Of a stretch of 25,221 nt of DNA, positions 52 through 21,939 are shown one piece after another; within the stretch, counting starts at the first letter, position 1, and each line of letters opens with the position of its first letter. Under the pieces are notes generated by a model. It worked only from the letters and a program-made list of their open reading frames with translations. It was not told the DNA's origin and ran no database searches. A program made the position numbers and the translations under genes. The stretch comes from a virus. Where the stretch lies: the IMG/VR virus record IMGVR_UViG_3300025127_000250, positions 1-25,221 of that record. The stretch is one strand, 5' to 3'.

Positions 52-3000
52 TTACCATGTGTTTAAAACGACCCTTTTCCACTGACTGTTTCCAGTGCAA
101 ACATAGATATAACCACCATGAGCTACCATTTCTCCAACCATACCAGAACTAGTGGAGCTAAGAGGAGGTGTGTCTGCAACTTGAGTAAGGGAACTGTATG
201 ATTGAGTTGGTTTTGTAACATTTATATCTGTGCTATTTTGAGCTAATATTAGAGTAGCTGATATCTTAGGAGATGCAGGACCAACAGTTGCATTACCAGA
301 TGTATCTCTATTTTTAGTATAATTTATCTGAACACAAAGGTCACGATAATACATAGATTCATTCACAGTGGAAAACATAGTGGAATTATACTTAATTCCA
401 GCACCAAAATTAAGAGTTCCATAATTCGTAATACCTGCCATGGTTCTTATTCGATCTGCTGTGCCAGTTCCGAATGCTGTCGTGAAATGATAAACTTTAG
501 AAATTGATGCATTTTCATCATTAACAGTCACATATAAAGTTCCAGCAAATGAACCATGTGCCTGTCCTATTCTGAATAAAGCTTGAGTTTGATTTACTGG
601 ACTTCCATCAGCCGTAGCAGAATCATCAATTTGAATTACTCTTCTATATATACCACCACCAGTTATTTGTTGTGCATCACTAGCTCTCAAATGTGAAAAT
701 ACTACATCACCATCAGAGTTGACACGGAATCTCTCTTCTCCTTCTGTTGTTATTTTAACATGCCCGTCAGAACCAGTATCAACTGTTTCTACAGATGTGT
801 TACCCTCTTCTATTTTATCTGAAGCACTAACACCTGTTTTAACTGCAGTTGCTAGATCCTCAATTTTTACCTGAGTATAAACTTCAGTATTACCAAGATT
901 TAAATTAGTATTATTTGCAGTATTTCGACTTACTGCAACACCAAGTGCTCCATCACCAAAAGTTCCTGTTTGACCAGATGAGTAAATCCACTGTTCGATT
1001 CTAAAATATGTGGTTACAGATATGTCAACTACAAATTCTCCCTCTGATTCATCCTCAGAATCAGAAGCATTACCTCCACCTGACACTGAAGGATCCACAC
1101 CAGAATACTGACTCGTTCCATAATAATAAGATGTGGTGCCACTAAAATCATCGTTTGTGTTATATGCCAATCTACTCTGAAATCTATCTACCTGATGAGC
1201 TGGCACTCTCCAACTTATCTTGTATTTTCCTGCTGCTAGTGAAAAAGTATTACTATATTGATTTCCTGCTTCGACACCATCACCAAGAGAAACAAAATTA
1301 CTTGGATCATATTTTGTGTTTAAAACTCTTGGGAACCATACATCTAAAACAGTATTAACACCATTCCAATATGCTCTTTTGCCTGTATAATCTCCAGTTC
1401 CTACTTTACCTCCATACATACCTGCGGATTTCTCATCTCGAATCACTGCGACACGACTTGTTCCGTCTCCAGATGTACTTGTATCAAACCATATATCACC
1501 ATCACAGGGATTGGTAGGTGTTGTGCTTTGAACAAATCTGGCACCAAAAGCATTACTATTTGAAGGTATATTGATCTGTTTTGTTCCTGTCGATGGTTCA
1601 GTTACTGTAATTGGTAAGGCACAAGGTGCACTTCGATTCGTATAGTCAACTGTTACGTCAGTTATACCACCTAAACCACTTACAGTATCAAATACTAAAG
1701 CACCTGCACTAACTTTTACAATCTTTCCATCATCACCAGGATTTGCAATTGAGGAAGGTGTATCATCTAAATCTGTAAACTTTTGAGCTCCTACAGAGGA
1801 GGGATCAACAAATTCTAATGCTGTTCCATTATTTGTTGATCCGTCTTTATTAACTCTTACTAACTTATTTGCGTGATTAGTGTAGTTTGCTGGTGTATCA
1901 TCTAAATCGGTAAAATTAAGAGTTCCAACACTTCCTCCTTCAACCTGTCCCCAAGTCCATCCACCGTTACCATCTGCTTTAATAACATAATTTTCTGTAC
2001 CAGTTCCATCATTCGAATCTATAATTTCTCCTGGTTTAATTTTCGGAACCGTTAATTTATTATTGGATGCATCATATAAGAAGTTAGAGTCAACCTTAGG
2101 TTCTTGATAACATCCCGCATCTGATAATTCAAAGAAACCAATATAGTTTATTGCACAACTTCCTGTTCCAGTTTTTACCGTATCTGCCTGACAAACAGTT
2201 GCTGTACTAAAATTAATTCCACAAGTAGTAACACATGTTATTAAACCCTTTCCATTTACGGTGATTCTTGGAACTGTGGTGCAATCACCATAAGTGCCAA
2301 CGCTACAATTAACAGTTGCTAATGTTCCACATGCCTCTACATCCTGACTACCATCAAAAGAAACACCCCAAGTCATATCACCACACATCGAAATGCATCT
2401 TGCAGTTTTTAATTTACAAGCTTGCTCGGATGTTGAAATAACAGTTGCCCACTTGATATGAGTTCCAGTTGAACATAAAAATTGACCAGATGTTCCAAGA
2501 CATGAATCACAATCTTTTAGTCCAGCACCAAGTTGAACGTTACTACTACAATCACCTCTCAACCAGTAAGCAGATTCACTACTTGCAATCACTAATTGAT
2601 TTTGACCTGTGAGACATTCAAGTTGAGCTTTATTACCAATTGCTATATTATAATCTCCTGATGTTTGACTACAACCTGCTAATCTACCTAGGAATATATT
2701 GTACATTCCAGTGCCAAGATCACAAGCTACTTTACATCCAATCGCAATGTTATGTGATCCTGTTGCATTAGAGAAAAGTGCATTTCGACCAATTGCAACA
2801 TTACTTCCTGTACCGTTATTATTACAATATCCTGCACACTGACCTAAGAAAATATTATTAGCACTAATGGTGTTGCTAAGACCTGATTTTGATCCAAGAA
2901 ATATATTATTGTCTGCATTAGGATTAACATTTGAATTACTTCGTGTATTACAACCTGCCTTAAGTCCAATCGCAATATTACAACAAGTATTAGCATCAAA

Positions 3001-6000
3001 AGAATCACCAGCATTAGTTCCAGCATATAAGTTCTCTTGAGCGTCTGGTTGCCATGCAGTTGCACCACCAACACAAGTTAAGTTCGAACCATCTCCATAA
3101 AATTTGTTTGCATAAACATTATTCCACTGATGTGTAGAAGATTCACCCAAATCATAGCAGTTATGGCATACTGGACTCACATTTGAATCAAAATATGATT
3201 TTCTACCAGGATTATCAATTCCATCTTGAACCATGAATGTTGATATTCCAAGTGAATTACTACCATCCTTTACATGTAATGCAAGAAAACTTGATCCTGT
3301 ATTATAAATTCCGAATTTACCATCAGATCCACCTACACTAAAAATATCACCATCATGTGTTCCTGATGTTCCTTTTAAATGGAAATTTCCACATATTGCT
3401 AAATCTTTTGTGCTCGCACTAAATGTGATTCCAAGTCCTGTGTATAATGGTTGATAAGTTCTACTATCAGATGGACTGTTAACATCCACAAATGATGGGT
3501 AGTAAACCTTTGTTGGATCTATGGATGGATCAGTTGCACCAACAGCGATTCTATTTGCGTCTTGAGTTAGTGCTTGAGTAGATAAATTGACCCATGCTCC
3601 ATCTTTGTAAATTCTTACTGAGGGTGTTGATGTATCATACCAAATATCACCCTCACATACAGTGTAACCACCTGTTGTTGGATCAACACCTTGAACATAT
3701 TTTCTACCATACGCATTGCTAGTTGTTCCAATACCAATTGTTGTTGCTCCACCTACTGTTTCACTAACAGTGATTGGATTTAAGGGAGTGTCATCTACAT
3801 TACAATAATTTTGCTGTTTGACATCTACAGTTGTCAAACTACCAGCACCAGCATCTTCCCATGAAGGGGCAGCGCTTGTACCATTAGAGGTTAATACCTG
3901 ATTTGGTGCTCCGTAGTTTTCACCACCTAATCCTATTTGACCTAAAGATCCGATGCGAAGTCTTTCACTTCTATTAGCACTATTACTAGGACTAGTTTCA
4001 AAAGTAATATCAGTCGGTATTTGATTTCCAGATACAGTTCCATTTACTACTACTTTTATCTGTGCTGTATTATTTTCTAAATCTGTTCCATCAGCAGGAC
4101 AAAATGCAATTTTTCCTAAAGTATCACCATTTGCCACAGTGTTGACTGATCCAGTAGATGTACCTCTTGTCTTTCCAAACAAAATTATTGAAGATTGAGT
4201 GGTATCCTGATTATTAACTAATGCAAATGAAGAAGTATTTACGGAATCTCCTTCTATGTGTAACTTTCCTCTTTGATTACTAAAACCTACATTTCTTGCT
4301 GTGTCTGTACCAATACCAACTGTTCCATTAAGTGGGTCATAAGTAATTAACTCAGTTGAGTATATCAATTCACTCTCTCTAGCATTATATGGATTATTGC
4401 TATCAACAAATGTAAAATGATGTATAGGAACGAGAGATTGAACTGTGATAGTTCCATACATGTTATTGTGACTAGAACACTGATAATAATATACACCTGC
4501 TGTATTTGGAGTCCATGATACTGTGTTATTACCAGTAGAACCTTGACCACTGGCAGCTGGTGTGCTTACTTGATTATTGACTCCAGTTCCTTGTACAGTC
4601 TTGATATAAAACGGATGAATGGCATTGACATTAGATAAATTAAAATTAATCGTATCTCCAACTTTTAATGTAACAGGTTGATTATTACCATTTACTGTTC
4701 CGTTTCTATCAGATCCACTTAACGTATAGTATGAAGAAACAGGTGCAGTGACTGTAATATTATAAGTTGCATTTGTGACTCCTGTATTAATACTTCCAAC
4801 ACCAACTTTATTTGCATTTTCAATTGTCAAGTCACCAGCATTAACCCAATTTATCTCACTACCAGTTGACTCTAATAATTGACCATTAGTACCTAACTCA
4901 CCATCTTTATCTTGCAATCCACCACTGATTTTTACACCATCATCAGTAGTTTGAAATCTTAATGTATTATTATATCTCAATTCAACACGGTCACCACTGT
5001 AGAACCTTGCCATGTCTTCATCTTCAGTTGCATTTCTTATTGCAACTTGATTGGATAATATAACAAGATCTCCTGTTCCAGTATCTTGGATGTAACTATG
5101 TTGATCTGCCGTAGCTGGATCAAAAGGAGATGTACCATGAAATATCCTTAAATCTTCACCATCACCTAAATGTATTCCTGCTTGATCTCTAAAATATGCT
5201 GTTGAACCAAATCCTACAGTTGCACTTGTTCCTATGAGAATATCCTCAACAAATGTAGATACACCTGAGACTTTTAATTGATTGAGTGTACTAATTCCTG
5301 TAACACGTAAATTAGTGAGGGTGCTGATTCCTGGTGATACGTTTAATTGAATTAGATCTCCAATACCACTTATTACATTAGTCGCAGTTTTTACAGTTAG
5401 ACCAACTGGTGATACCCAAGATGGTGCTTCAGTTTCATTATACTGAAGTAATTGTCCCGTGCTTGTTCCATTATCAATAAATGATGTTTGAGAAATGTCT
5501 GACTGATATGGTATTTTGTATGCTTCTCCACCACTTAAACTTTGTGCTGCACCAGTTAATGTTCCGTAAAATTCATTTGCAGTAACAATACCGACAGCTA
5601 ACTTAGCAGTATTTAAGGAGGTAACTGGATTATCAGGACCTGTAGTTCCAATACCAACTTTACCGTCAGATGTGATACGAACTTTTTCTGTGCCACTGGT
5701 AGTAAAAGTTAATGCACCATCAGTTCCCATAATATGATTTACGTTATCTGAGGCATCACGAAGAACCATCTCAAAATCACCATTAGGTCTCTGGAAGAAT
5801 CCTGCCCCATCTGATACATCAGTGTCTATTCTAAATCTCCAAGCACCTTCATTTGGTGGTAAATAACTTGGTGCAGTAGCATAAATTTGTAAAGGTGCAC
5901 TGGGAAGTGTGGCTCCAATCCCGACACTTCCTACTCCCGTGACATTAAAACCTTGTGTTCCCATACCCACCTGAAATATATTAACAGGTTGTGTAGTTCC

Positions 6001-7488
6001 AATTCCAACTCTACCTTGATCACCGTCATGAGAATTAATCGCAGTAAATAGTGTTCCACCTATTCCAACATCTAATCTTTTTGTAAATGTATTCGCAACA
6101 CCTGTGGCATGAATATCACCTTCAAAAGTGGATACACCAGTGACTTTTAATTGTTCAGTGACTACAACTGTTGGACTAAAATCTGCACCATTAAAAACAT
6201 CCGCATAGACAGTTCCCCATCGATTTAATTGTGATCCTAGATTCTTTGATCCATCAGTATTGTCAGGTATTAAATCACTCTCAACTTTATCGTCTACAAA
6301 TAAATCAGTCGTGGAAGTTACACCAGAAACAGTAACACCAGTTCCAGTAACCTCTAATTTTGTACTTCCTGCTTGCTGTAAAACAAGACTCCCAGTTCCA
6401 TTATCATTAATAATACTATCGCTTCCATCATGTACAATTTGCAAAGCATCATTTGCACCTAAGTACAAGGATTTGTTATTAGGAAATCTTGTGGTTTGAA
6501 GAGTGGTTACACCTACAACAGATAAATGATCGTCAATTATAATTTGACCACCAGCAGAATCTATAGTTAGATTTCCAACAGCAGTATCAATTTCATTATC
6601 ATTTGCAATACCAATCCTAACATTATCAATATTAGCACCACCATTACCAACATATAATTGTCCTGCAAATGTTGTGACTCCAACAAACCTAGAATTACCC
6701 AAAACATCTAATAATCTATCTGGTTGTGTTGATCCAATACCGACACGATTATTATTGTTTTCATAATCAAATACAAAATTAGATGCTCCATCTATTTTTC
6801 CATTATCAGCATGGAATTGAACTGATTTTTTCTCTCCACCAGCATCTGGAACACCAGTTATTGATTGATCTGCCCACTCTAATCCCCCACCTGCAGATTT
6901 TATTAAAACTTGATTTGTAGTTCCAGTATCATTATCTTTATCATATACGTCTCCAGTAATTTTAAGATTACCTGATAAATCTAGATCTTGTTCTGGTTGT
7001 GTACTCCCAATACCAACTCTATTAGAATCATTATCATATGTTAATCGACTTGCAGTACCAAAATCACCATTATCATTGAAGAGAACTTGATGATCTAATC
7101 CAGGTGGTGCAACTAAAATTGTTACTCCTACTCCTGGATTACCATCAGTATCTAAAGTTCCTATGGCAGTAACTATACTTCCTTCAAAATTAATATCAGT
7201 TATACTACTTGCTGCAGATGGATTTGGAACAATATTTCCCTCTTCTCTAATTGTAATTGAACCAGGAGTAACTCCTCCCCCTCCACCAAGAGGAACCCAA
7301 AATCTTTTACCAGGTTGACTTGCAACGGAGACTATTTGATACTTCTGTTCTGGTGGAACATTCTCAAGATTTGTCAGTGGATCTCCCAGATTTGGTTCTG
7401 CTTGATTTAATCCAAGATACTGATATCTGTCAGTTGTTAATGATCCTTGCGGAGTTCTTTTTACTCTACCACTAAAATACTTTGGCAT
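52..7488 (-). CDS. Giant fibre-like virion protein with cupredoxin and Cys-rich beta-roll modules
   Basis: A 2478-residue mosaic protein, probably a baseplate-attached fibre. The N-terminus (MPKYFSGRVKRTPQGSLTTD, then YLGLNQAEPNLGDP) resembles other marine T4-like structural proteins. At least six VGIG(S/T)TQP-type modules occur in about the first 1130 residues. A cupredoxin-like domain spans about 915-1022. A paired module with a GDIWxDTST core occurs near 1219-1306 and 1941-2019. A cysteine-rich region of NIAIGxxAG / NNIFLG repeats spans about 1439-1794 and looks like a YadA-type left-handed beta-roll. Two FTDLDDTP motifs follow. The C-terminus ends in IYVCTGNSQWKRVVLNTW; no S74 intramolecular chaperone was recognised. 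Its ATG is one base after the stop of the 448-aa gene. Role as a fibre is inference from repeats, size and context; receptor binding is not shown. Confidence 0.75.
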   Translation of the reverse strand: MPKYFSGRVKRTPQGSLTTDRYQYLGLNQAEPNLGDPLTNLENVPPEQKYQIVSVASQPGKRFWVPLGGGGGVTPGSITIREEGNIVPNPSAASSITDINFEGSIVTAIGTLDTDGNPGVGVTILVAPPGLDHQVLFNDNGDFGTASRLTYDNDSNRVGIGSTQPEQDLDLSGNLKITGDVYDKDNDTGTTNQVLIKSAGGGLEWADQSITGVPDAGGEKKSVQFHADNGKIDGASNFVFDYENNNNRVGIGSTQPDRLLDVLGNSRFVGVTTFAGQLYVGNGGANIDNVRIGIANDNEIDTAVGNLTIDSAGGQIIIDDHLSVVGVTTLQTTRFPNNKSLYLGANDALQIVHDGSDSIINDNGTGSLVLQQAGSTKLEVTGTGVTVSGVTSTTDLFVDDKVESDLIPDNTDGSKNLGSQLNRWGTVYADVFNGADFSPTVVVTEQLKVTGVSTFEGDIHATGVANTFTKRLDVGIGGTLFTAINSHDGDQGRVGIGTTQPVNIFQVGMGTQGFNVTGVGSVGIGATLPSAPLQIYATAPSYLPPNEGAWRFRIDTDVSDGAGFFQRPNGDFEMVLRDASDNVNHIMGTDGALTFTTSGTEKVRITSDGKVGIGTTGPDNPVTSLNTAKLAVGIVTANEFYGTLTGAAQSLSGGEAYKIPYQSDISQTSFIDNGTSTGQLLQYNETEAPSWVSPVGLTVKTATNVISGIGDLIQLNVSPGISTLTNLRVTGISTLNQLKVSGVSTFVEDILIGTSATVGFGSTAYFRDQAGIHLGDGEDLRIFHGTSPFDPATADQHSYIQDTGTGDLVILSNQVAIRNATEDEDMARFYSGDRVELRYNNTLRFQTTDDGVKISGGLQDKDGELGTNGQLLESTGSEINWVNAGDLTIENANKVGVGSINTGVTNATYNITVTAPVSSYYTLSGSDRNGTVNGNNQPVTLKVGDTINFNLSNVNAIHPFYIKTVQGTGVNNQVSTPAASGQGSTGNNTVSWTPNTAGVYYYQCSSHNNMYGTITVQSLVPIHHFTFVDSNNPYNARESELIYSTELITYDPLNGTVGIGTDTARNVGFSNQRGKLHIEGDSVNTSSFALVNNQDTTQSSIILFGKTRGTSTGSVNTVANGDTLGKIAFCPADGTDLENNTAQIKVVVNGTVSGNQIPTDITFETSPSNSANRSERLRIGSLGQIGLGGENYGAPNQVLTSNGTSAAPSWEDAGAGSLTTVDVKQQNYCNVDDTPLNPITVSETVGGATTIGIGTTSNAYGRKYVQGVDPTTGGYTVCEGDIWYDTSTPSVRIYKDGAWVNLSTQALTQDANRIAVGATDPSIDPTKVYYPSFVDVNSPSDSRTYQPLYTGLGITFSASTKDLAICGNFHLKGTSGTHDGDIFSVGGSDGKFGIYNTGSSFLALHVKDGSNSLGISTFMVQDGIDNPGRKSYFDSNVSPVCHNCYDLGESSTHQWNNVYANKFYGDGSNLTCVGGATAWQPDAQENLYAGTNAGDSFDANTCCNIAIGLKAGCNTRSNSNVNPNADNNIFLGSKSGLSNTISANNIFLGQCAGYCNNNGTGSNVAIGRNALFSNATGSHNIAIGCKVACDLGTGMYNIFLGRLAGCSQTSGDYNIAIGNKAQLECLTGQNQLVIASSESAYWLRGDCSSNVQLGAGLKDCDSCLGTSGQFLCSTGTHIKWATVISTSEQACKLKTARCISMCGDMTWGVSFDGSQDVEACGTLATVNCSVGTYGDCTTVPRITVNGKGLITCVTTCGINFSTATVCQADTVKTGTGSCAINYIGFFELSDAGCYQEPKVDSNFLYDASNNKLTVPKIKPGEIIDSNDGTGTENYVIKADGNGGWTWGQVEGGSVGTLNFTDLDDTPANYTNHANKLVRVNKDGSTNNGTALEFVDPSSVGAQKFTDLDDTPSSIANPGDDGKIVKVSAGALVFDTVSGLGGITDVTVDYTNRSAPCALPITVTEPSTGTKQINIPSNSNAFGARFVQSTTPTNPCDGDIWFDTSTSGDGTSRVAVIRDEKSAGMYGGKVGTGDYTGKRAYWNGVNTVLDVWFPRVLNTKYDPSNFVSLGDGVEAGNQYSNTFSLAAGKYKISWRVPAHQVDRFQSRLAYNTNDDFSGTTSYYYGTSQYSGVDPSVSGGGNASDSEDESEGEFVVDISVTTYFRIEQWIYSSGQTGTFGDGALGVAVSRNTANNTNLNLGNTEVYTQVKIEDLATAVKTGVSASDKIEEGNTSVETVDTGSDGHVKITTEGEERFRVNSDGDVVFSHLRASDAQQITGGGIYRRVIQIDDSATADGSPVNQTQALFRIGQAHGSFAGTLYVTVNDENASISKVYHFTTAFGTGTADRIRTMAGITNYGTLNFGAGIKYNSTMFSTVNESMYYRDLCVQINYTKNRDTSGNATVGPASPKISATLILAQNSTDINVTKPTQSYSSLTQVADTPPLSSTSSGMVGEMVAHGGYIYVCTGNSQWKRVVLNTW
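4423..4746 (-). other. Cupredoxin (type-1 copper) domain within the giant fibre
   Basis: Residues about 915-1022 of the 2478-aa protein form a plastocyanin/amicyanin-like unit. It has a beta-rich start, VTLKVGDTINFNLSN, then HPFYIKT with His958, then WTPNTAGVYYYQCSSHNNMY with Cys1004, His1007 and Met1010. The C-x2-H-x2-M spacing is that of amicyanin, and the 46-residue gap from His958 to Cys1004 is plausible for cupredoxins. All four canonical ligands are present, so copper binding is possible. Related domains may occur in other marine phage fibres and may be purely structural. Domain borders are approximate. Confidence 0.75.
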
Positions 7489-15285: not shown

Positions 15286-16632
15286 TTAACCGCCGTAAAA
15301 TCCAAATGAATCTCTAACTATTTTCATAGAAGTATATGAACCGTCTGGATCAAAATGATGACATAACTCCTTTATTATATATTTACCACTTATATCAGGA
15401 TCCAATTCACTTGAATCTTCTCTTGATATTTTTGGAAATTCACATGTAATTACATTACCAGCTCTCAAATCAGTGTTGCAAGGAATCAACATACTGATTG
15501 TTTGTGTAAGTAAAACATTATATCTCATCGTAGATTGTGCTTGATACTTACTAGCATCAGCATTGACATTTCTTGATATACCACGATCAAGTGTTCCAAC
15601 ATCTAAGATACCAGTGAATATTCGAGTTGGAAGATCATCTAAAGTTCTTTCTGCTTCATCTGATATTTTAGGAAGTTCAATCTCCCTTGCTCCAAGTTTT
15701 TTAACATCAGATTTTTGAAATTTAAACTTACCTTGCTCTGGTGTAGTAAATCTAAAATTTAATGGGTTAAAGAAAAGTTGTTGACTTGAATATGTTCCTA
15801 ATCTTAATTTTTTCAATAAATCTTGATTTTTATCAACAGAGTATTTTATGATTCTAAAATCATTATTTCGATCAACAGAACTCTTATTTACTTCTGTATA
15901 AACATATGTTGCTACAGATTCTTGCTCAATCATGTCATCAATTGATCTAAATTGAAAACCATCTTGAGTCTGATAAAATAAGAATCCTGCAGTTTTATCT
16001 CCAGATTTTGATGGTACTGATTTAGATGCTAACCATACAAGAACGGAAAATGGTTTTTTAAGATTGCCAATAAAATTATACTTGTTACTTGTAGGATCAA
16101 CTTTTATACGAAGTGGATCAATTTTTAAGGTTTCTTGTAGAATTTTCTTTACTGATGTGGATATCGAACCTGTATACTTTCGAATTACTCTAGCAGTTTC
16201 ATTTGTAATTGCCTCTCTTGAAACAAAATTAAGTAGAAAACTTTCTCTTTGAGTTTCCGCAATAACATCAGTAATACTTGAAACATAAAGATATTTCATC
16301 GGATCACTTGAAAAATTAATTCCCTTCTTGTCCTCACCATTATATGATTTACCCCTATCAAGTATTTTTAAGATAAGTCTTTCACCACCTCTTAAGGGAA
16401 GACCACCATATATTGATTGTTTTGCACCATCAACTTTACTTGAATCTGTTTTATCTTTTGGTGACATTGAATCACCAGTGTTAATTACCCTAATCTTAGC
16501 AGTAATTGTAGGTGAGAATATATCTTCATAGTAATCAACAGAAACTGCACCTAATCTAAGATCAGCAGTTCTCTCCTGATCGTTTGACTCAAGTGTTATT
16601 ATTTCATATTGTGCTGGATTTGTTGCTGACAT
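15286..16632 (-). CDS. 27: gp27-like baseplate hub protein
   Basis: A 448-residue protein (T4 gp27 is about 390). It begins with YEIITLESNDQERTADLRLG, then DYYEDIFSPTITAKIRV, and has SITDVIAETQRESFLLNFVS and KKPFSVLVWLASKSVPSK. These fit the tube-like hub domains of the gp27 / VgrG-N / GpD family. It should form the trimeric hub connecting the tube to the gp5 spike. The neighbouring gp5-like gene three bases downstream supports this. The ATG overlaps the stop of the preceding gene by one base (TAATG). Identification is from overall pattern and context, not a catalytic motif. Confidence 0.65.
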   Translation of the reverse strand: MSATNPAQYEIITLESNDQERTADLRLGAVSVDYYEDIFSPTITAKIRVINTGDSMSPKDKTDSSKVDGAKQSIYGGLPLRGGERLILKILDRGKSYNGEDKKGINFSSDPMKYLYVSSITDVIAETQRESFLLNFVSREAITNETARVIRKYTGSISTSVKKILQETLKIDPLRIKVDPTSNKYNFIGNLKKPFSVLVWLASKSVPSKSGDKTAGFLFYQTQDGFQFRSIDDMIEQESVATYVYTEVNKSSVDRNNDFRIIKYSVDKNQDLLKKLRLGTYSSQQLFFNPLNFRFTTPEQGKFKFQKSDVKKLGAREIELPKISDEAERTLDDLPTRIFTGILDVGTLDRGISRNVNADASKYQAQSTMRYNVLLTQTISMLIPCNTDLRAGNVITCEFPKISREDSSELDPDISGKYIIKELCHHFDPDGSYTSMKIVRDSFGFYGG

Positions 16633-17996
16633 TATGTGTACGCTAAATTTGATAAAAATTGTTGTTCTATCATAGTATTTACTGAGTCATTCTTTAACAT
16701 CAAAATCTTAGTGCTTGCACTAGGTGTTGATGATGCCATAGATTGATCCTGATCAATAACCACTATTTTTTGTTTCTTTTTATTAGGAGTTAAATTTGAT
16801 ACTGATTGGTTATCAGGTGTAACAGATTTAATAGATTCAGATTTCATAACTGAACTTTTCATCTTAGTTTGATATGCCTCTTTTGCTGCTTTAATTTCTC
16901 TAAAGTCAGTTGTTTTAGATCCATCTTCTTTTATGATAGTAATTTTACCACTACCAGATGATCCTGACAACTCAGGGACATCTTTTTCATCCTTTAATTT
17001 CATCGGTGTTTTTGGTGCCGATCCACTCTTAATGTCAATAACTTTTTCTTTCTTCTCTGTTGGTATTTTTTGTTCTGTTGGGGTAGAAACTCCTTTTCCT
17101 TCAGTTCCAACTTTCGCAATTTCTTTTTTAGCTTTGTCTATCGCAACATCAAAAGTTTCTTTTCCTTTTGAAATTTCAGATCCAACTTTATCTAAAGTTC
17201 CTTTAATGCCTTTTACATCAGTTGGTTCCTCTGGTTTTTGTGGTTTACCTTCTTCCAACTTACCATCTTTTGCAATTTTCTTTGGATCCTCCTGTTCTTT
17301 CTTTTTAAGTAATCCAAGACCACCCTTAATTTTCTTTAGTATATTTCCAAATGCATTCTTGATGCCATCAAATTTTTCTCTAATGAAATCACCAATTTTT
17401 GAAATATCAAATGATTTTATTGTGTTAAATGCATTTGAGATGGCACCTCCTATTTTTTTGAAGAAATCACCAATACCAGTGAAGAAATCTTTTATTGACT
17501 GACCTATATTTTGAATCGATTTAATAACTTTTTTAATAAAATTAACAAGTTTTAATCCTGTATTTACTAACCACCCAATCAAAATAGTTGAAAGAAAATC
17601 AATTATTTTACCTAAAATTCCTCCTGGTTTTTTAAGTTTCATTTCTGGATTTGGTTTTTCATTTGAGTCTTTGTTTCCCTCCAACAATTTTTCTCTTTCT
17701 TTTCTTCTTCTCTCCTCTGCCTCCTTCGCACGTCTTTTTTTATCTTTCATAAACTTATCTTTATCAATTTTTTTACTTTTCGACGTATTTGTCTTCACTT
17801 TTTTCATAGTCACTCTTGATTTTTTAACTATTGCTCCTCCTTTCTTAGCAATTGCACCACCAGATCTCATACCCACTCTGGCAATAGATCCACCCATTTT
17901 CAAACTACTTTTTATGGCGACTTTTGCCCCTACTTTGGCACCAACTAATGCCCCCTTTACTAATCCTCCTGCGATAGCTGCTAATGGTGCTGGCAT
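16632..17996 (-). CDS. Tape-measure-like, basic amphipathic tail protein
   Basis: A 454-residue, very lysine-rich protein. The N-terminus (LAAIAGGLVKGALVGAKVGA) is small-residue amphipathic. Residues about 50-110 are highly charged and likely coiled coil (RRAKEAEERRRKEREK). Residues about 124-235 alternate hydrophobic and basic helices (GGILGKIIDFLSTILIGWLV, then FIKKVIKSIQNIG and DFFKKIGGAI). The C-terminal half is low-complexity Lys/Glu/Pro/Ser. This resembles tape-measure or tail-lumen proteins such as T4 gp29. Its hydrophobic core resembles that of the next upstream gene, suggesting paralogy. It lies one base after the upstream stop. Which of the two is the true gp29 equivalent is unclear. 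Confidence 0.5.
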   Translation of the reverse strand: MPAPLAAIAGGLVKGALVGAKVGAKVAIKSSLKMGGSIARVGMRSGGAIAKKGGAIVKKSRVTMKKVKTNTSKSKKIDKDKFMKDKKRRAKEAEERRRKEREKLLEGNKDSNEKPNPEMKLKKPGGILGKIIDFLSTILIGWLVNTGLKLVNFIKKVIKSIQNIGQSIKDFFTGIGDFFKKIGGAISNAFNTIKSFDISKIGDFIREKFDGIKNAFGNILKKIKGGLGLLKKKEQEDPKKIAKDGKLEEGKPQKPEEPTDVKGIKGTLDKVGSEISKGKETFDVAIDKAKKEIAKVGTEGKGVSTPTEQKIPTEKKEKVIDIKSGSAPKTPMKLKDEKDVPELSGSSGSGKITIIKEDGSKTTDFREIKAAKEAYQTKMKSSVMKSESIKSVTPDNQSVSNLTPNKKKQKIVVIDQDQSMASSTPSASTKILMLKNDSVNTMIEQQFLSNLAYT

Positions 17997-17997
17997 T

Positions 17998-19488
17998 CTA
18001 GGTCACCGTATTGTAATTCATTTGTGAATATAATGTAAGAAAATTACTAGGATTTGAAGAAGCAATAGATGGTGCTTCAGTTTGATTTGAGTCTGCTCCT
18101 GGTGCTTTTCCACCATCTTGTTGTGCAGAAGATTTTTTATAAACTATTTCTGGTTTAGAATCTGCAACTGGGTCTAAATTTGTTTGAGAAGTAACTTTAG
18201 TTATTTTAGTTTCAGATTTTGATGGTGATTGTACGCTTGAATCACTAACTTGAGATACAGGTTCTGGTGATGAACTACCCCCACCACCACTTATTTTTGC
18301 CTCATACTTTGCTCTAATATTTTCTTTTGTTTCTTCCCATTTTACCCTTGCATCTGCCCAATGTTGTTTTCTTTCAACACCACTCTTTGGAGATGTTTCT
18401 CTAACTTGTTTCCACCACTTATCATGTGTTTCATTTATTTCTTTATTCATCGCATCTCGAATACCATCTAATCTATCTCTTTCTTTTTTAAATTCTATGT
18501 ACGCTGCTTTTTGTTCTTCAGTTCCATGTTCCATCACGTCAACATTTTTACCATCTATTTCAATTTTTCCACCAGAGGTAACACCCATATTTTTTAAATT
18601 TTTCAATCTTTCATTATTTTTTTTATGTGCATCTCTAAATTCTTTACCTCCTGCCATTGCTGTTCTTATCGCATTACCACCCATAACAGCAGCACCAATA
18701 CCAGCTATTACAGCTAATGTAATTAATCCTGGTGGTGATAATAAAAATCCTATGATCGCAGTTCCAACAGTTGCAAGCATACTGGCAATCGGAGTAATTA
18801 ATGCAGGTATGGCACCAAGTCCACCACTCAATGCTAACATGATACCTCCAGCTATGCCAAGTGTTGAAACGATTGATATCGCAAAACCAGCAAATGCCTT
18901 ATAATCTCCATCCATAAATGCTTTTATTGCTTTCAAACCTTTATCAAATAGAAATCCAGCAAAGATGAGCATAAAAGCATCTTTTAATTTCTGTAAGATG
19001 CCCCCCATTGCTTTACCAGCAGATTTCATTGGAGATAATAACTTATTTTTTAAAGAATCTGGAGTTTTTTCTAATAAATTTTCCTCTTCACTTGCTTTAT
19101 CTTTTTCGTCTGCTATTTTAGCACTTCTTTTTTGTTTATCCTCTTGTTCTTGTTTCTTCTTTTTCTCTTCAAGTAAGGAGTCTGATATTTTCTTTACGGT
19201 GTCTTGAAGAGCAGATAATGCTTTTTGTATATTTTCAACAGTAGAAGATAAATTAGAATCACCACCAGTTTTTACTAGTGCTCCTCCACTCTCAGGGATC
19301 ATTGAAGATTGTGGTTGAATTCTAGTGGCATCATTTTTTCTATTACCAAAAACTCTATCACTACTTACACGAGTTCTCTTGAAGTAAGCGATTCTCTCTG
19401 CATTAGTTTTGAAATATTTTCCAGTACTAGGATCCACTCCAGTGATTGCTGGACTTAGTGTTGGTTTTAGAGAGATGTTAGATTCCAC
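17998..19488 (-). CDS. Tape-measure-like protein with hydrophobic core (gp29-like candidate)
   Basis: A 496-residue protein starting with GTG (19488-19486); no upstream ATG was seen that fits better. It overlaps the preceding small gene by 11 bases. Residues about 75-135 are probably coiled coil with a long Lys/Glu stretch. Residues about 160-277 are strongly hydrophobic (GGILQKLKDAFMLIFAGFLF, FAISIVSTLGIAGGIMLALS, several Gly/Ala-rich helices), as in tape-measure proteins that can insert in the host membrane. Residues about 277-385 are charged helices, then a Ser/Pro-rich tail. Position right after the gp26/gp51-like pair matches tape-measure genes in long-tailed phages. At under 500 residues it would be short for a lone tape measure, so it may act with the downstream gene. 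Confidence 0.55.
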   Translation of the reverse strand: MESNISLKPTLSPAITGVDPSTGKYFKTNAERIAYFKRTRVSSDRVFGNRKNDATRIQPQSSMIPESGGALVKTGGDSNLSSTVENIQKALSALQDTVKKISDSLLEEKKKKQEQEDKQKRSAKIADEKDKASEEENLLEKTPDSLKNKLLSPMKSAGKAMGGILQKLKDAFMLIFAGFLFDKGLKAIKAFMDGDYKAFAGFAISIVSTLGIAGGIMLALSGGLGAIPALITPIASMLATVGTAIIGFLLSPPGLITLAVIAGIGAAVMGGNAIRTAMAGGKEFRDAHKKNNERLKNLKNMGVTSGGKIEIDGKNVDVMEHGTEEQKAAYIEFKKERDRLDGIRDAMNKEINETHDKWWKQVRETSPKSGVERKQHWADARVKWEETKENIRAKYEAKISGGGGSSSPEPVSQVSDSSVQSPSKSETKITKVTSQTNLDPVADSKPEIVYKKSSAQQDGGKAPGADSNQTEAPSIASSNPSNFLTLYSQMNYNTVT

Positions 19489-19657
19489 TTTGTTGTTGCT
19501 GTTTTAAATTTTCCTCTTCAATATATTGTTCTAGAAGAGCAACATATACATCCTTTTCCCAAGGAATCATATTTTCAATTTCAGTTAATGAGTATTTATG
19601 ATGTTGCATCAAGGCAAAATTTATCTTGAAGTATGACGCTAAATCAATATGCGCCAT
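19478..19657 (-). CDS. Small gp51-position ORF; predicted C-terminal part of a gp26 frameshift fusion
   Basis: A 59-residue reading frame: MAHIDLASYFKINFALMQHH followed by SLTEIENMIPWEKDVYVALL, then an acidic EEEN and Gln-rich end. The P-W-E-(R/K)-D-x-Y-x-x-x-L pattern resembles the downstream parts of tail-assembly chaperones and small gp51-position proteins. It lies two bases after the gp26 stop and is open in the -1 frame back through the slippery site. Its ATG sits within the 5' arm of a predicted 9-bp stem, so separate initiation may be poor. It is probably made mainly as a gp26 fusion. It overlaps the GTG start of the tape-measure-like gene. Confidence 0.7.
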   Translation of the reverse strand: MAHIDLASYFKINFALMQHHKYSLTEIENMIPWEKDVYVALLEQYIEEENLKQQQQSGI

Positions 19658-19687
19658 ACCTACTCGAAAAAACTTGACAGACCCTCC
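19631..19687 (-). promoter_or_regulatory. Predicted -1 programmed ribosomal frameshift signal
   Basis: Reading 5'-3' on the minus strand, a Shine-Dalgarno-like GGAGGG lies at 19687-19682. After 9 bases comes the slippery heptamer T TTT TTC (19672-19666), in the gp26 frame as X XXY YYZ over codons Phe237-Phe238. After a 6-base spacer comes a hairpin: arm 19659-19651 (GTATGGCGC), 11-base loop, arm 19639-19631 (GCGTCATAC), nine pairs with one G-U. The order and spacing match the dnaX-type bacterial -1 site. The gp26 stop TAG (19662-19660) lies in the spacer. Confidence 0.75.
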
Positions 19688-20379
19688 AATACTACTTCGG
19701 ATTCAACCTTTGTTTCTGGATTTTTAATCTTAAGTTTATGAGATAATTTAGGCATTGTTTCAAAGAAAGTTTCAATTTCTTTAAATTGTTTTGAACTTAA
19801 CTGTTCAATAAAATCATTAAGTTCTTTCTTTGTACAATCAGATGCATTCCAAGATTCTTCTTCATTAAATACTTGATCGATACATGAAACAATCATGTCA
19901 AATGATTGAGAAACGTTAATACCTTCATCAACATTGAAATTATTTGAAATAAATTCAGATAAGGATGGATATTTCATTCTTAATGTTAGATTTTCATCTA
20001 ACTTAATATCTTTTGTATGTTTTGGATTTTTATGAACTTTAATTTCATCAAGAGCAATGGTAACTGGAACCTGAGTCTTGTCATCGTCAGGACAGGTGAT
20101 TATAACATCAACATTCTCTCCAACGGATTTTCCACGAATATTTAAGAACAGATATTCTATATCAAATGTTGATAATTTTTCAACTTTAGTTCCCCTAGTT
20201 AGAATGCAATTTCCAATCACAGTTTTAATTGCATTGGTGATTTGCTTTTGATCTTCTGATTCCATTGCAATAATCAGAAGTTTTTCTTCTTTTACTAAAA
20301 ATGGTCGATACTTAATTTTTCGATCACTCGATGGTAATACCATCTCATAAGTTGGGGTTACAATTTTTGGTAATGGCAT
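19660..20379 (-). CDS. 26: gp26-like baseplate hub / tail assembly protein
   Basis: A 239-residue protein whose start, MPLPKIVTPTYEMVLPSSDR followed by IKYRPFLVKEEKLLIIAME, matches the T4 gp26 family (Pfam T4 baseplate family by recall). gp26 is needed for hub formation. The C-terminal half is acidic and helical. The ATG at 20379 follows a late-promoter box by 25 bases and has no clear Shine-Dalgarno. The gene ends ...SSFFE-stop within a slippery site; -1 slippage at F237-F238 would extend it with R-V-G and the 59-residue downstream frame to 300 residues. That organisation is the one known from lambda G/GT chaperones upstream of the tape measure. Confidence 0.8.
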   Translation of the reverse strand: MPLPKIVTPTYEMVLPSSDRKIKYRPFLVKEEKLLIIAMESEDQKQITNAIKTVIGNCILTRGTKVEKLSTFDIEYLFLNIRGKSVGENVDVIITCPDDDKTQVPVTIALDEIKVHKNPKHTKDIKLDENLTLRMKYPSLSEFISNNFNVDEGINVSQSFDMIVSCIDQVFNEEESWNASDCTKKELNDFIEQLSSKQFKEIETFFETMPKLSHKLKIKNPETKVESEVVLEGLSSFFE

Positions 20380-20418: not shown

Positions 20419-21084
20419 TTAGAAGAGTCTAAAATTCTCGTTATCACCTCTTTGTACATTCAAACTATTGTCTTTTCCTGAAATATATCTCTCATAGTTA
20501 AATGTGCAACTTACCTGTAAAGTATCTGAACTTCCATACTGTACAGGTGTTGAAGATAAACTAATTGGAAACATTCCTATAAATGTATATTCAAGTTCCT
20601 GATCATAATCACGTTCAAATTTTACAATTTTAACTCTATCACATTTATATCCACTAGCACCTCTTGGATACCTCATACGATAAAAGTATGCAGGGGATGA
20701 TTTTGAGAAGAATGAATTTTTACTTATTTCTGAACCACTTGAGATATATTCAATCCAGTGTTCTAAAAATTTAATCATTTTATAATCTGAATCAACATAA
20801 AAAGACAACACCAACTCTGTAAAAATTCTTGTATGTGCAAATTTTTCCTGAACTCCAGTAAAATTACCAAATATATCACTTGTTCCCAAAGTACTGCCTG
20901 GCAGTGATGCAGAGTTACAAAGTAATCCAGCATTTTCTATTATAAATCTTCGATCAACACCTTTTCTTGCAAGATAATTAAATAAATTTCTTGACAAACC
21001 ATCAAAAAATACTTGATAGTGCGAAGTTTGTGCTGTTTTTGCAAGTTTGTTTCTAAACTCACCTATTTTCTTAGGACGAACCAT
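20419..21084 (-). CDS. 54: Tail-tube-family protein, probable gp54-like tube initiator
   Basis: A 221-residue protein with a tail-tube fold pattern of the T4 gp19/gp54 family: N-terminal charged helix, NAGLLCNSASLPGSTLGTSD (the 'aaLPG' strand typical of tube proteins), ELVLSFYVDSDYKMIKFLEHW and IEYIS, and a final strand VSCTFNYERY. gp54 polymerises on the baseplate to start the tube and is a paralogue of gp19. The window also carries gp48, its partner in T4, which favours gp54 over gp19, though T4 gp54 is longer. The ATG at 21084 is preceded by TATTTAG with no Shine-Dalgarno. Start of the minus-strand operon in this window. Confidence 0.6.
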   Translation of the reverse strand: MVRPKKIGEFRNKLAKTAQTSHYQVFFDGLSRNLFNYLARKGVDRRFIIENAGLLCNSASLPGSTLGTSDIFGNFTGVQEKFAHTRIFTELVLSFYVDSDYKMIKFLEHWIEYISSGSEISKNSFFSKSSPAYFYRMRYPRGASGYKCDRVKIVKFERDYDQELEYTFIGMFPISLSSTPVQYGSSDTLQVSCTFNYERYISGKDNSLNVQRGDNENFRLF

Positions 21085-21121: not shown

Positions 21122-21562
21122 ATGTCTTATAAGGGAAAATACTATCCATCCTTTCCTAAGAAGTACAAAGGTGATCCGACAAATATAATTTATAGATCAC
21201 TTTGGGAAAGAAAATTCATGGTCTGGTGTGATAAAAATGAAAACATATTGAAGTGGGCAAGTGAAGAAATCGCAATTCCATATCGATCTCCAATAGATGG
21301 TAGACTACACAGATATTTTCCAGATTTTTATGTTAAAGTCAGAGAAAACAGTGGAAAAATTGTTGAAAAATTGATTGAAGTTAAACCTTTAAAACAAACC
21401 ACACCACCTACAAAACCAAAAAGAAAAACAAAAGGATATATCTATGAGGTTCGTGAATATGCAAAAAATATGGCAAAATGGGAGGCAGGAACTGAATTTT
21501 GTAAAGATAGATCATGGAAATTTCAAGTATTAACAGAAAAAGAACTAGGAATTAAGAAATGA
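21122..21562 (+). CDS. 4: gp4-like head completion protein, PD-(D/E)xK nuclease fold
   Basis: A 146-residue protein like T4 gp4 (also called gp50), which acts at the portal in finishing DNA-filled heads. Motifs: YRSLWERKFMVWCD with Glu29, then PDFYVKV with Asp68, and IEVKP with Glu86 and Lys88. This E...PD...ExK set is a PD-(D/E)xK / TnsA-type nuclease site, so an active endonuclease is plausible. It overlaps the next gene by four bases (ATGA). First gene of a short plus-strand late operon with gp48 and gp53. Name confidence is good; nuclease activity is inferred from motif. Confidence 0.8.
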   Translation: MSYKGKYYPSFPKKYKGDPTNIIYRSLWERKFMVWCDKNENILKWASEEIAIPYRSPIDGRLHRYFPDFYVKVRENSGKIVEKLIEVKPLKQTTPPTKPKRKTKGYIYEVREYAKNMAKWEAGTEFCKDRSWKFQVLTEKELGIKK

Positions 21563-21939
21563 CAAACAGTTATCCAACTGATGATAAAGATAATCGAGTT
21601 AGATCTGTAGTCTATAGATTAATCGGAACAGAGGATCCTGATGATTTAATGATTGAATTGATGCAAGTATTAGGTGATACAGTGACTCCTGTTCCAGATG
21701 TTGGTAAGTACTATATTTTTGTATATAATCCAAAAACATCAGGTATTCAATATGACCAAAATCCTTTAGTTGCAGTCACAGATGTATTCAGATGGGGTTT
21801 TCGTGGTATTAATTTTCACTGGAATGGATACCGACAATATACATGGAATGAAGTTGCTGGACAACTCTATGAAGTGAGGTCAGATGAGTTGGCTGATGTA
21901 AGAGAATTACCTTTTGCAAAAATCCTGCTAAATAGTTAA
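21559..21939 (+). CDS. Conserved-looking phage protein, function unknown
   Basis: A 126-residue acidic protein starting MTNSYPTDDKDNRVRSVVYR, with KYYIFVYNPKTSGIQYDQNP and DVFRWGFRGINFHWNGYRQY. The 'Y.F.Y.PK......YD..P' pattern is one I associate with small phage structural or assembly proteins found beside T4-like gp4 and gp48, but I cannot assign a function. No signal peptide, membrane segment or catalytic motif is visible. It starts within the gp4 stop (ATGA overlap) and precedes gp48 by 15 bases, which suggests coordinated late expression with head-completion and tube genes. Confidence 0.7.
   Translation: MTNSYPTDDKDNRVRSVVYRLIGTEDPDDLMIELMQVLGDTVTPVPDVGKYYIFVYNPKTSGIQYDQNPLVAVTDVFRWGFRGINFHWNGYRQYTWNEVAGQLYEVRSDELADVRELPFAKILLNS

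Follow-up and report, generated by a model that had tools for sequence, protein, structure and literature searches.

A probable programmed −1 ribosomal frameshift at the 3' end of gp26, a putative tail assembly chaperone gene, in a marine T4-like phage

Does the gene for gp26 in T4-like phages end in a programmed frameshift that fuses it to the small gp51-like open reading frame (ORF) behind it, or are the two ORFs separate genes? The question was raised by a 25-kb virus record from IMG/VR, analyzed here as a stretch of 25,221 nucleotides (the window), for which the nearest isolate found was cyanophage S-SRM01 (gp26 73% identical). Atkins et al. (2016) described G-T frameshifting as a feature that phages with long tails, "except T4", have widely conserved (PMC5009743). 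According to papers that cite them, Vladimirov, Gautam and Davidson (2022, Virology 566:9-15) identified tail assembly chaperones of T4-like phages; in these citing accounts, T4-like TAC-N genes carry poly-T −1 slippery sequences (PMC12846349), and some T4-like phages encode the short form and the fused long form in separate genes (PMC10885494). As described there, those chaperones share with the window a short/long pair and a poly-T stretch for −1 slippage within the gene for the short form. The first-pass annotation of the window had regarded the idea as not established for T4-type phages, a view superseded by these accounts; since the citing papers credit Vladimirov et al. (2022) with the kind, the window cassette adds a strongly supported member of a kind already reported. 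In the literature open to our search, we did not find reports of a covarying hairpin that buries the start codon of the second ORF, or of start-codon loss in about half of clusters.

All elements of the cassette lay on the minus strand. The gp26 gene (19660..20379, 239 amino acids [aa]), which would encode the short, TAC-N-like product, ended in GAG GGT CTG TCA AGT TTT TTC GAG TAG. Its two Phe codons, in frame as AGT TTT TTC, formed a slippery heptamer U_UUU_UUC (19666..19672), the putative slip site, which fits the 0-frame X_XXY_YYZ pattern expected close to the 3' end of a first ORF; in-frame T_TTT_TTC occurred once in the 8,205 codons of the window genes, one codon before the gp26 stop. That stop, TAG (19660..19662), stood within the six-base spacer GAGTAG, one sense codon after the slip site. 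A Shine-Dalgarno (SD)-like GGAGGG (19682..19687), read directly from the sequence, lay 9 nt 5' of the slip site as a possible stimulator, and a candidate stimulatory hairpin (19631..19659) followed the spacer, with a 9-bp stem of GTATGGCGC (19659-19651) and GCGTCATAC (19639-19631), one G-U pair and an 11-nt loop. The 59-aa gp51-like ORF (19478..19657) began two bases past the gp26 stop, in the −1 frame, and would supply a TAC-C-like C-terminal domain. Reading across the slip in that frame gave F-F-R-V-G-M-A-H..., so that the predicted TAC-NC-like frameshift product (19478..20379) would comprise gp26 residues 1-238, R-V-G and then the 59-aa ORF (238 + 62 = 300 residues). Heptamer, GGAGGG at nine bases, stop-bearing spacer, 9-bp hairpin and the open path through R-V-G into a 300-residue product were all as the first-pass annotation had described them.

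Loci of gp26 were gathered from IMG/VR and isolates (an IMG/VR scan with Vibrio 6E35 gp26 as query gave no matches), and 249 loci of non-T4-type arrangement were counted. TTTTTT[C/T/G] stood at the homologous place in 245 of the 249 (228 TTTTTTC, 16 TTTTTTT, and 1 TTTTTTG), and the gap from slip to stop was one sense codon in 217. Relatives bearing the heptamer spanned Kyanoviridae (Syn33, syn9, S-H34, P-SSM5, and HTVC008M, the last as TTTTTTT), Straboviridae (KVP40, CZ01, 6E35, and AP1), Pootjesviridae and others, with further sites in Stenotrophomonas phage Yut2, Agrobacterium phage OLIVR5, Rhizobium phage RHph_I9 (TTTTTTG) and Sinorhizobium phage phiN3 (TTTTTTT). For codon counts, loci were collapsed into 97 clusters (<90% protein identity), 93 of which carried the heptamer. 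Its first Phe codon was TTT in all 93, with no synonymous change on the tree, compared with 6 to 31 synonymous changes at each of ten other well-conserved gp26 Phe columns and a median of 31 third-base changes per gp26 column. The codon 5' of the Phe pair, which specified Ser, Asp, Asn, Ala, Thr, or His, had undergone 27 changes, always keeping its final T. The slip codons therefore show the synonymous constraint expected of −1 tandem slippage.

The four exceptions to the heptamer were Ackermannviridae or their gp26 neighbors. Canonical slippage was rejected for Ackermannviridae, in which the homologous place held [A/G]_AUU_UUC, A_CUU_UUC or C_GUU_UUU and the −1 frame was still open; sites of these types recall that of T7 gene 10. 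The loci concerned, without a canonical heptamer and with an open −1 frame, were L269-L286 (Kuttervirus-like), L089, L092, and L098. Many Kuttervirus-like loci also had no ATG, GTG, or TTG ahead of the C-domain, which suggests a variant slip site. As a separate observation, six loci (L222, L241, L242, L244, L256, and L196) had 10 codons from slip to gp26 stop rather than the usual 3, with heptamer and −1 frame intact.

Beyond the slip site, the −1 frame ran on without a stop for 55 aa or more in 245 of the 249 loci, the other four reaching the contig end still open, as expected of programmed frameshifting into a coding frame; the +1 frame shut within 6 to 24 codons in nearly all of them. The −1-frame codon right after the slip began with CG (Arg) in 74 of the 93 clusters, at a place where the 0-frame residue varied (E, A, G, or V), and a tblastn search with the −1-frame domain from the slip onward matched 550 phage records. 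The conserved C-domain motif could be recognized in 89 clusters, and in 47 of these there was no ATG, GTG, or TTG between the slip and the C-domain, ruling out a separate start by a standard codon. In those clusters, the gp51 domain appears, by its sequence context, to be reachable only by recoding. The window's own clade has retained an ATG at the 59-aa ORF, preceded by a weak GAG, so some separate initiation is possible there. None of 22 annotated isolate records held a joined gp26-gp51 gene: the deposited records examined either annotated gp26 and gp51 as two genes or omitted the second, and some started gp51 beyond its conserved N-terminus. In Syn33, annotated gp51 begins 51 bases past the gp26 stop, 3' of conserved −1-frame residues.

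Support for the hairpin was more local. The 45 nt 3' of the slip site had a fold z of −4.3 (measured on a locus, L004, with the same sequence as the window there), with values from −2.3 to −6 across the window's clade, and the wider 101 nt of the window gave −1.8. Over 26 aligned relatives, 97.4% of the hairpin pair cells held standard pairs. One pair covaried (G-C in 13, U-A in 10, and A-U in 1), giving a covariation score that beat all 500 shuffles, which ignore relatedness, and all slid versions; we take this as good, single-pair evidence for the hairpin. A universal hairpin was rejected: the 49 loci nearest Syn33 averaged a z of −0.83 with varied stems, the strong stems that S-H34, OLIVR5, and a phiN3-like contig had at this position were unrelated to it, and many lineages had no stem. 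A putative downstream stimulatory structure is thus a property of the window and its clade and is not general across relatives. Because the heptamer is near universal and the stem limited to a clade, the former is the element common to the relatives and the latter an addition specific to its lineage. Comparison of the relatives' gp26 ends, which the first-pass annotation had proposed, therefore bore out the heptamer and left its stem with one covarying pair within the clade and no conserved pairing outside it. Its claim that the start codon of the second ORF is buried in a hairpin arm holds in the same clade, where the ATG (19657-19655) sits in the 5' stem arm, and fails elsewhere. We put forward tentatively, at somewhat less than an even chance, that the clade hairpin has two jobs: it would set the slip rate by stalling ribosomes, and it would bury the ATG and thereby restrict the C-domain to the fusion product, in which case the annotated "gene 51" would not be independent.

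For a strong SD effect, the codon-shuffle test was suggestive at most: anti-SD pairing at the GGAGGG stretch had a mean z of −0.68 over the 93 clusters and −0.90 in the loci nearest the window, modestly above synonymous-codon expectation in relatives. On this sequence signal, GGAGGG is a plausible slip stimulator.

Both ORFs matched hub protein families. gp26 matched PF12322 (T4_baseplate, E = 1.3e-75) and the baseplate hub family phrog_150 (E = 5.8e-82), and the 59-aa ORF matched the baseplate hub assembly catalyst phrog_634 (E = 2.5e-28) as well as the C-terminus of phrog_150 (E = 1.6e-5). The AlphaFold model of gp26 had a pLDDT of 88.6, and a model of T4-type gp51 had one of 90.5. The highest-probability PDB matches to the gp26 fold were weak, at 0.44 for 2OB9, the tail assembly chaperone of HK97 (E = 1.5), and 0.38 for YqbN (3klu), both with E above 1, and no solved chaperone was among the 50 matches listed for the T4-type gp51 model. 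A PDB sequence search with gp26 gave a kinetochore match alone, which was judged to be chance.

Upstream of the cassette, in the position of lambda V, lay a gene for a tail tube-type protein (20419..21084, minus strand; PF23849 Phage_TTP_2, E = 3.7e-18; phrog_45, E = 8.4e-39). Downstream, in the position of lambda H, two minus-strand ORFs (16632..19488) made up a candidate tape-measure region: a 496-aa ORF (19488-17998) with a weak match to phrog_15478 (E = 0.035), and, second after the cassette, a 454-aa ORF (17996-16632) matching the tape measure family phrog_4197 (E = 2.7e-5). An ORF in the corresponding region of HTVC008M had a tape measure match of E = 8.4e-12. The order of tube-type protein, gp26/gp51 and tape-measure-like ORFs is that of lambda V-G-GT-H, so the cassette lies between tube protein and tape measure, as G/GT genes do, and, by sequence, would likewise yield a short form and a C-terminally extended long form. 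Elsewhere in the window, the ORF at the gp4 (head completion) position (21122-21562, plus strand) had a TnsA-like endonuclease N-terminal domain (Pfam E = 6.2e-23), and a 126-aa ORF at the gp2 position (21559-21939, plus strand), whose match to the PHROG for the DNA end protector was confined to positions 25-109 of 210, looks shortened or diverged. A 2,478-aa probable tail fiber or adhesin (52-7488, minus strand) carried a plastocyanin/azurin-like stretch at residues 935-1017 (Pfam Copper-bind, E = 0.0032, 18.3 bits, under the cut-off of 21.2).

The arrangement in T4 offers another view of the long form. In T4-type phages gp26 and gp51 are two genes on opposite strands, divergently transcribed and without a frameshift site, whereas the window has one gene and a slip site. 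A domain comparison run on T4-type relatives found that T4-type gp51 (250 aa) consists of a complete T4_baseplate domain and the C-domain, with the junction at residue 200, where the gp26 profile ends (E = 4.1e-11) and the −1 ORF profile begins (E = 7e-8), covering residues 200-251. T4 gp26 thus corresponds to the short form, and T4 gp51 joins a gp26-like domain to the same C-domain as the window's ORF. In L093 (1692-2444, minus strand, and 2492-3118, plus strand) and in L179-L190, T4-type gp51 is a gp26 paralogue with an extra C-terminal domain, encoded divergently from gp26. In a gp26/gp51 tree, in which some T4-type gp26 rows were without a few N-terminal residues, each T4-type set formed a clade (100%) and the midpoint root split them; rooted in this way, the tree does not date the duplication. 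By these comparisons, T4-type gp26 and gp51 are paralogues that supply the short and the long form from two genes, and the relatives would make both from one gene by frameshifting. The T4-type domain makeup and profile junction support a lambda G/GT-type tail assembly chaperone pair of gp26 and its fusion, the reading that the first-pass annotation had offered.

Could the 59-aa ORF nonetheless be an ordinary gene that is never fused, its translation beginning at its own ATG or through stop-start coupling to gp26? The ATG two bases past the gp26 stop in the window's clade, the stop-start overlaps of several lineages and the two-gene (or one-gene) annotation of the deposited records examined would all suit such a gene. 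It would leave unexplained the conservation of the heptamer and its preceding T at synonymous sites, the 47 of 89 clusters with no usual start codon ahead of the conserved domain, the placement of the window's ATG inside a stem and the full-length fusion found as T4-type gp51, and we consider it very unlikely. A fusion that arises when RNA polymerase, rather than the ribosome, slips on the T run seems more improbable still. Transcriptional slippage is known at T runs and a run of six is present here, but six is generally short for it, and a longer run would be favored, yet the seventh base was C in 228 of the 249 loci and T in 16; the frame register also suits tandem slipping of Phe tRNAs, and a stem lies at the expected distance in the window's clade.

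A third possibility accepts the frameshift and takes it to set dosage for assembly of the baseplate hub, with gp51 as a hub assembly factor only and no link to coating of the tape measure. T4 gp26 and gp51 are classed as hub assembly chaperones, with gp51 needed for assembly yet not present in the particle, and T4 genetics place both in the hub (PMC3004832); the similarity of fold to solved tail chaperones is also weak. Gene order and the short/long design, on the other hand, match lambda G/GT, the citing papers have Vladimirov et al. (2022) naming T4-like tail assembly chaperones, and gp29, the tape measure of T4, belongs to the hub, which makes the hub and tape-measure roles overlap. We regard a role confined to the hub as unlikely. 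The −1 frameshift proposed by the first-pass annotation is favored by the comparative evidence (the heptamer in 245 of 249 loci, the open −1 frame and the synonymous constraint). On cassette anatomy, conservation, −1-frame coding and domain homology to T4-type gp51, each read from sequence, the end of this gp26 tail assembly chaperone gene is very probably a −1 programmed ribosomal frameshift cassette.

In such a cassette, most ribosomes would end at the TAG and yield the short form, gp26. Some, held up at the hairpin and perhaps also by GGAGGG, would move back by one base on U_UUU_UUC, the two Phe tRNAs pairing anew with UUU, and would read R-V-G into the 59-aa ORF to give the 300-aa long form; the hairpin may stimulate the slip and so contribute to its rate. 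By analogy with lambda gpG/gpGT, the two products would serve as tail or hub chaperones, the gp26 part coating the tape measure protein, whose gene lies immediately downstream, and the extra C-domain recruiting tube or hub subunits. The lambda slip occurs on G_GGA_AAG, unlike the window heptamer. The two systems are alike in pairing a short protein with a −1 long form, 5' of the tape measure gene and 3' of the tube protein gene, and differ in that the window proteins belong to another family (PF12322), with a short 59-aa C-domain and a 0-frame stop one codon past the slip. In Escherichia coli dnaX, the hairpin lies 5 to 6 nt downstream of the slip site. The window resembles dnaX in its SD-like element, tandem slippery heptamer and downstream hairpin, whereas dnaX slips on A_AAA_AAG, its shift truncates the product where that of the window would extend it, and the contribution of the SD-like element is weakly supported in the window. 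Phage Adele (Vandenendeviridae / Andersonviridae; PMC12846349) also has a −1 frame open throughout and a T-rich slip motif at the end of its short-form gene; the invariant motif of its group is GTTTTT, compared with T_TTT_TTC in the window.

If the tentative reading of a hairpin with two jobs is true, the "gene 51" annotated in several hundred genomes would be no independent gene, its ATG having been wholly lost in many marine relatives. For marine T4-like phages, in which gp26 and gp51 are annotated as two proteins, the evidence points to short and long products of one gene. T4 gp51 has long carried the label of an essential hub "catalyst" of unknown function; it would be the gp26 long form, encoded by a gene of its own, and its role could therefore be tested by comparing frameshifting relatives, such as KVP40 and cyanophages, with T4.
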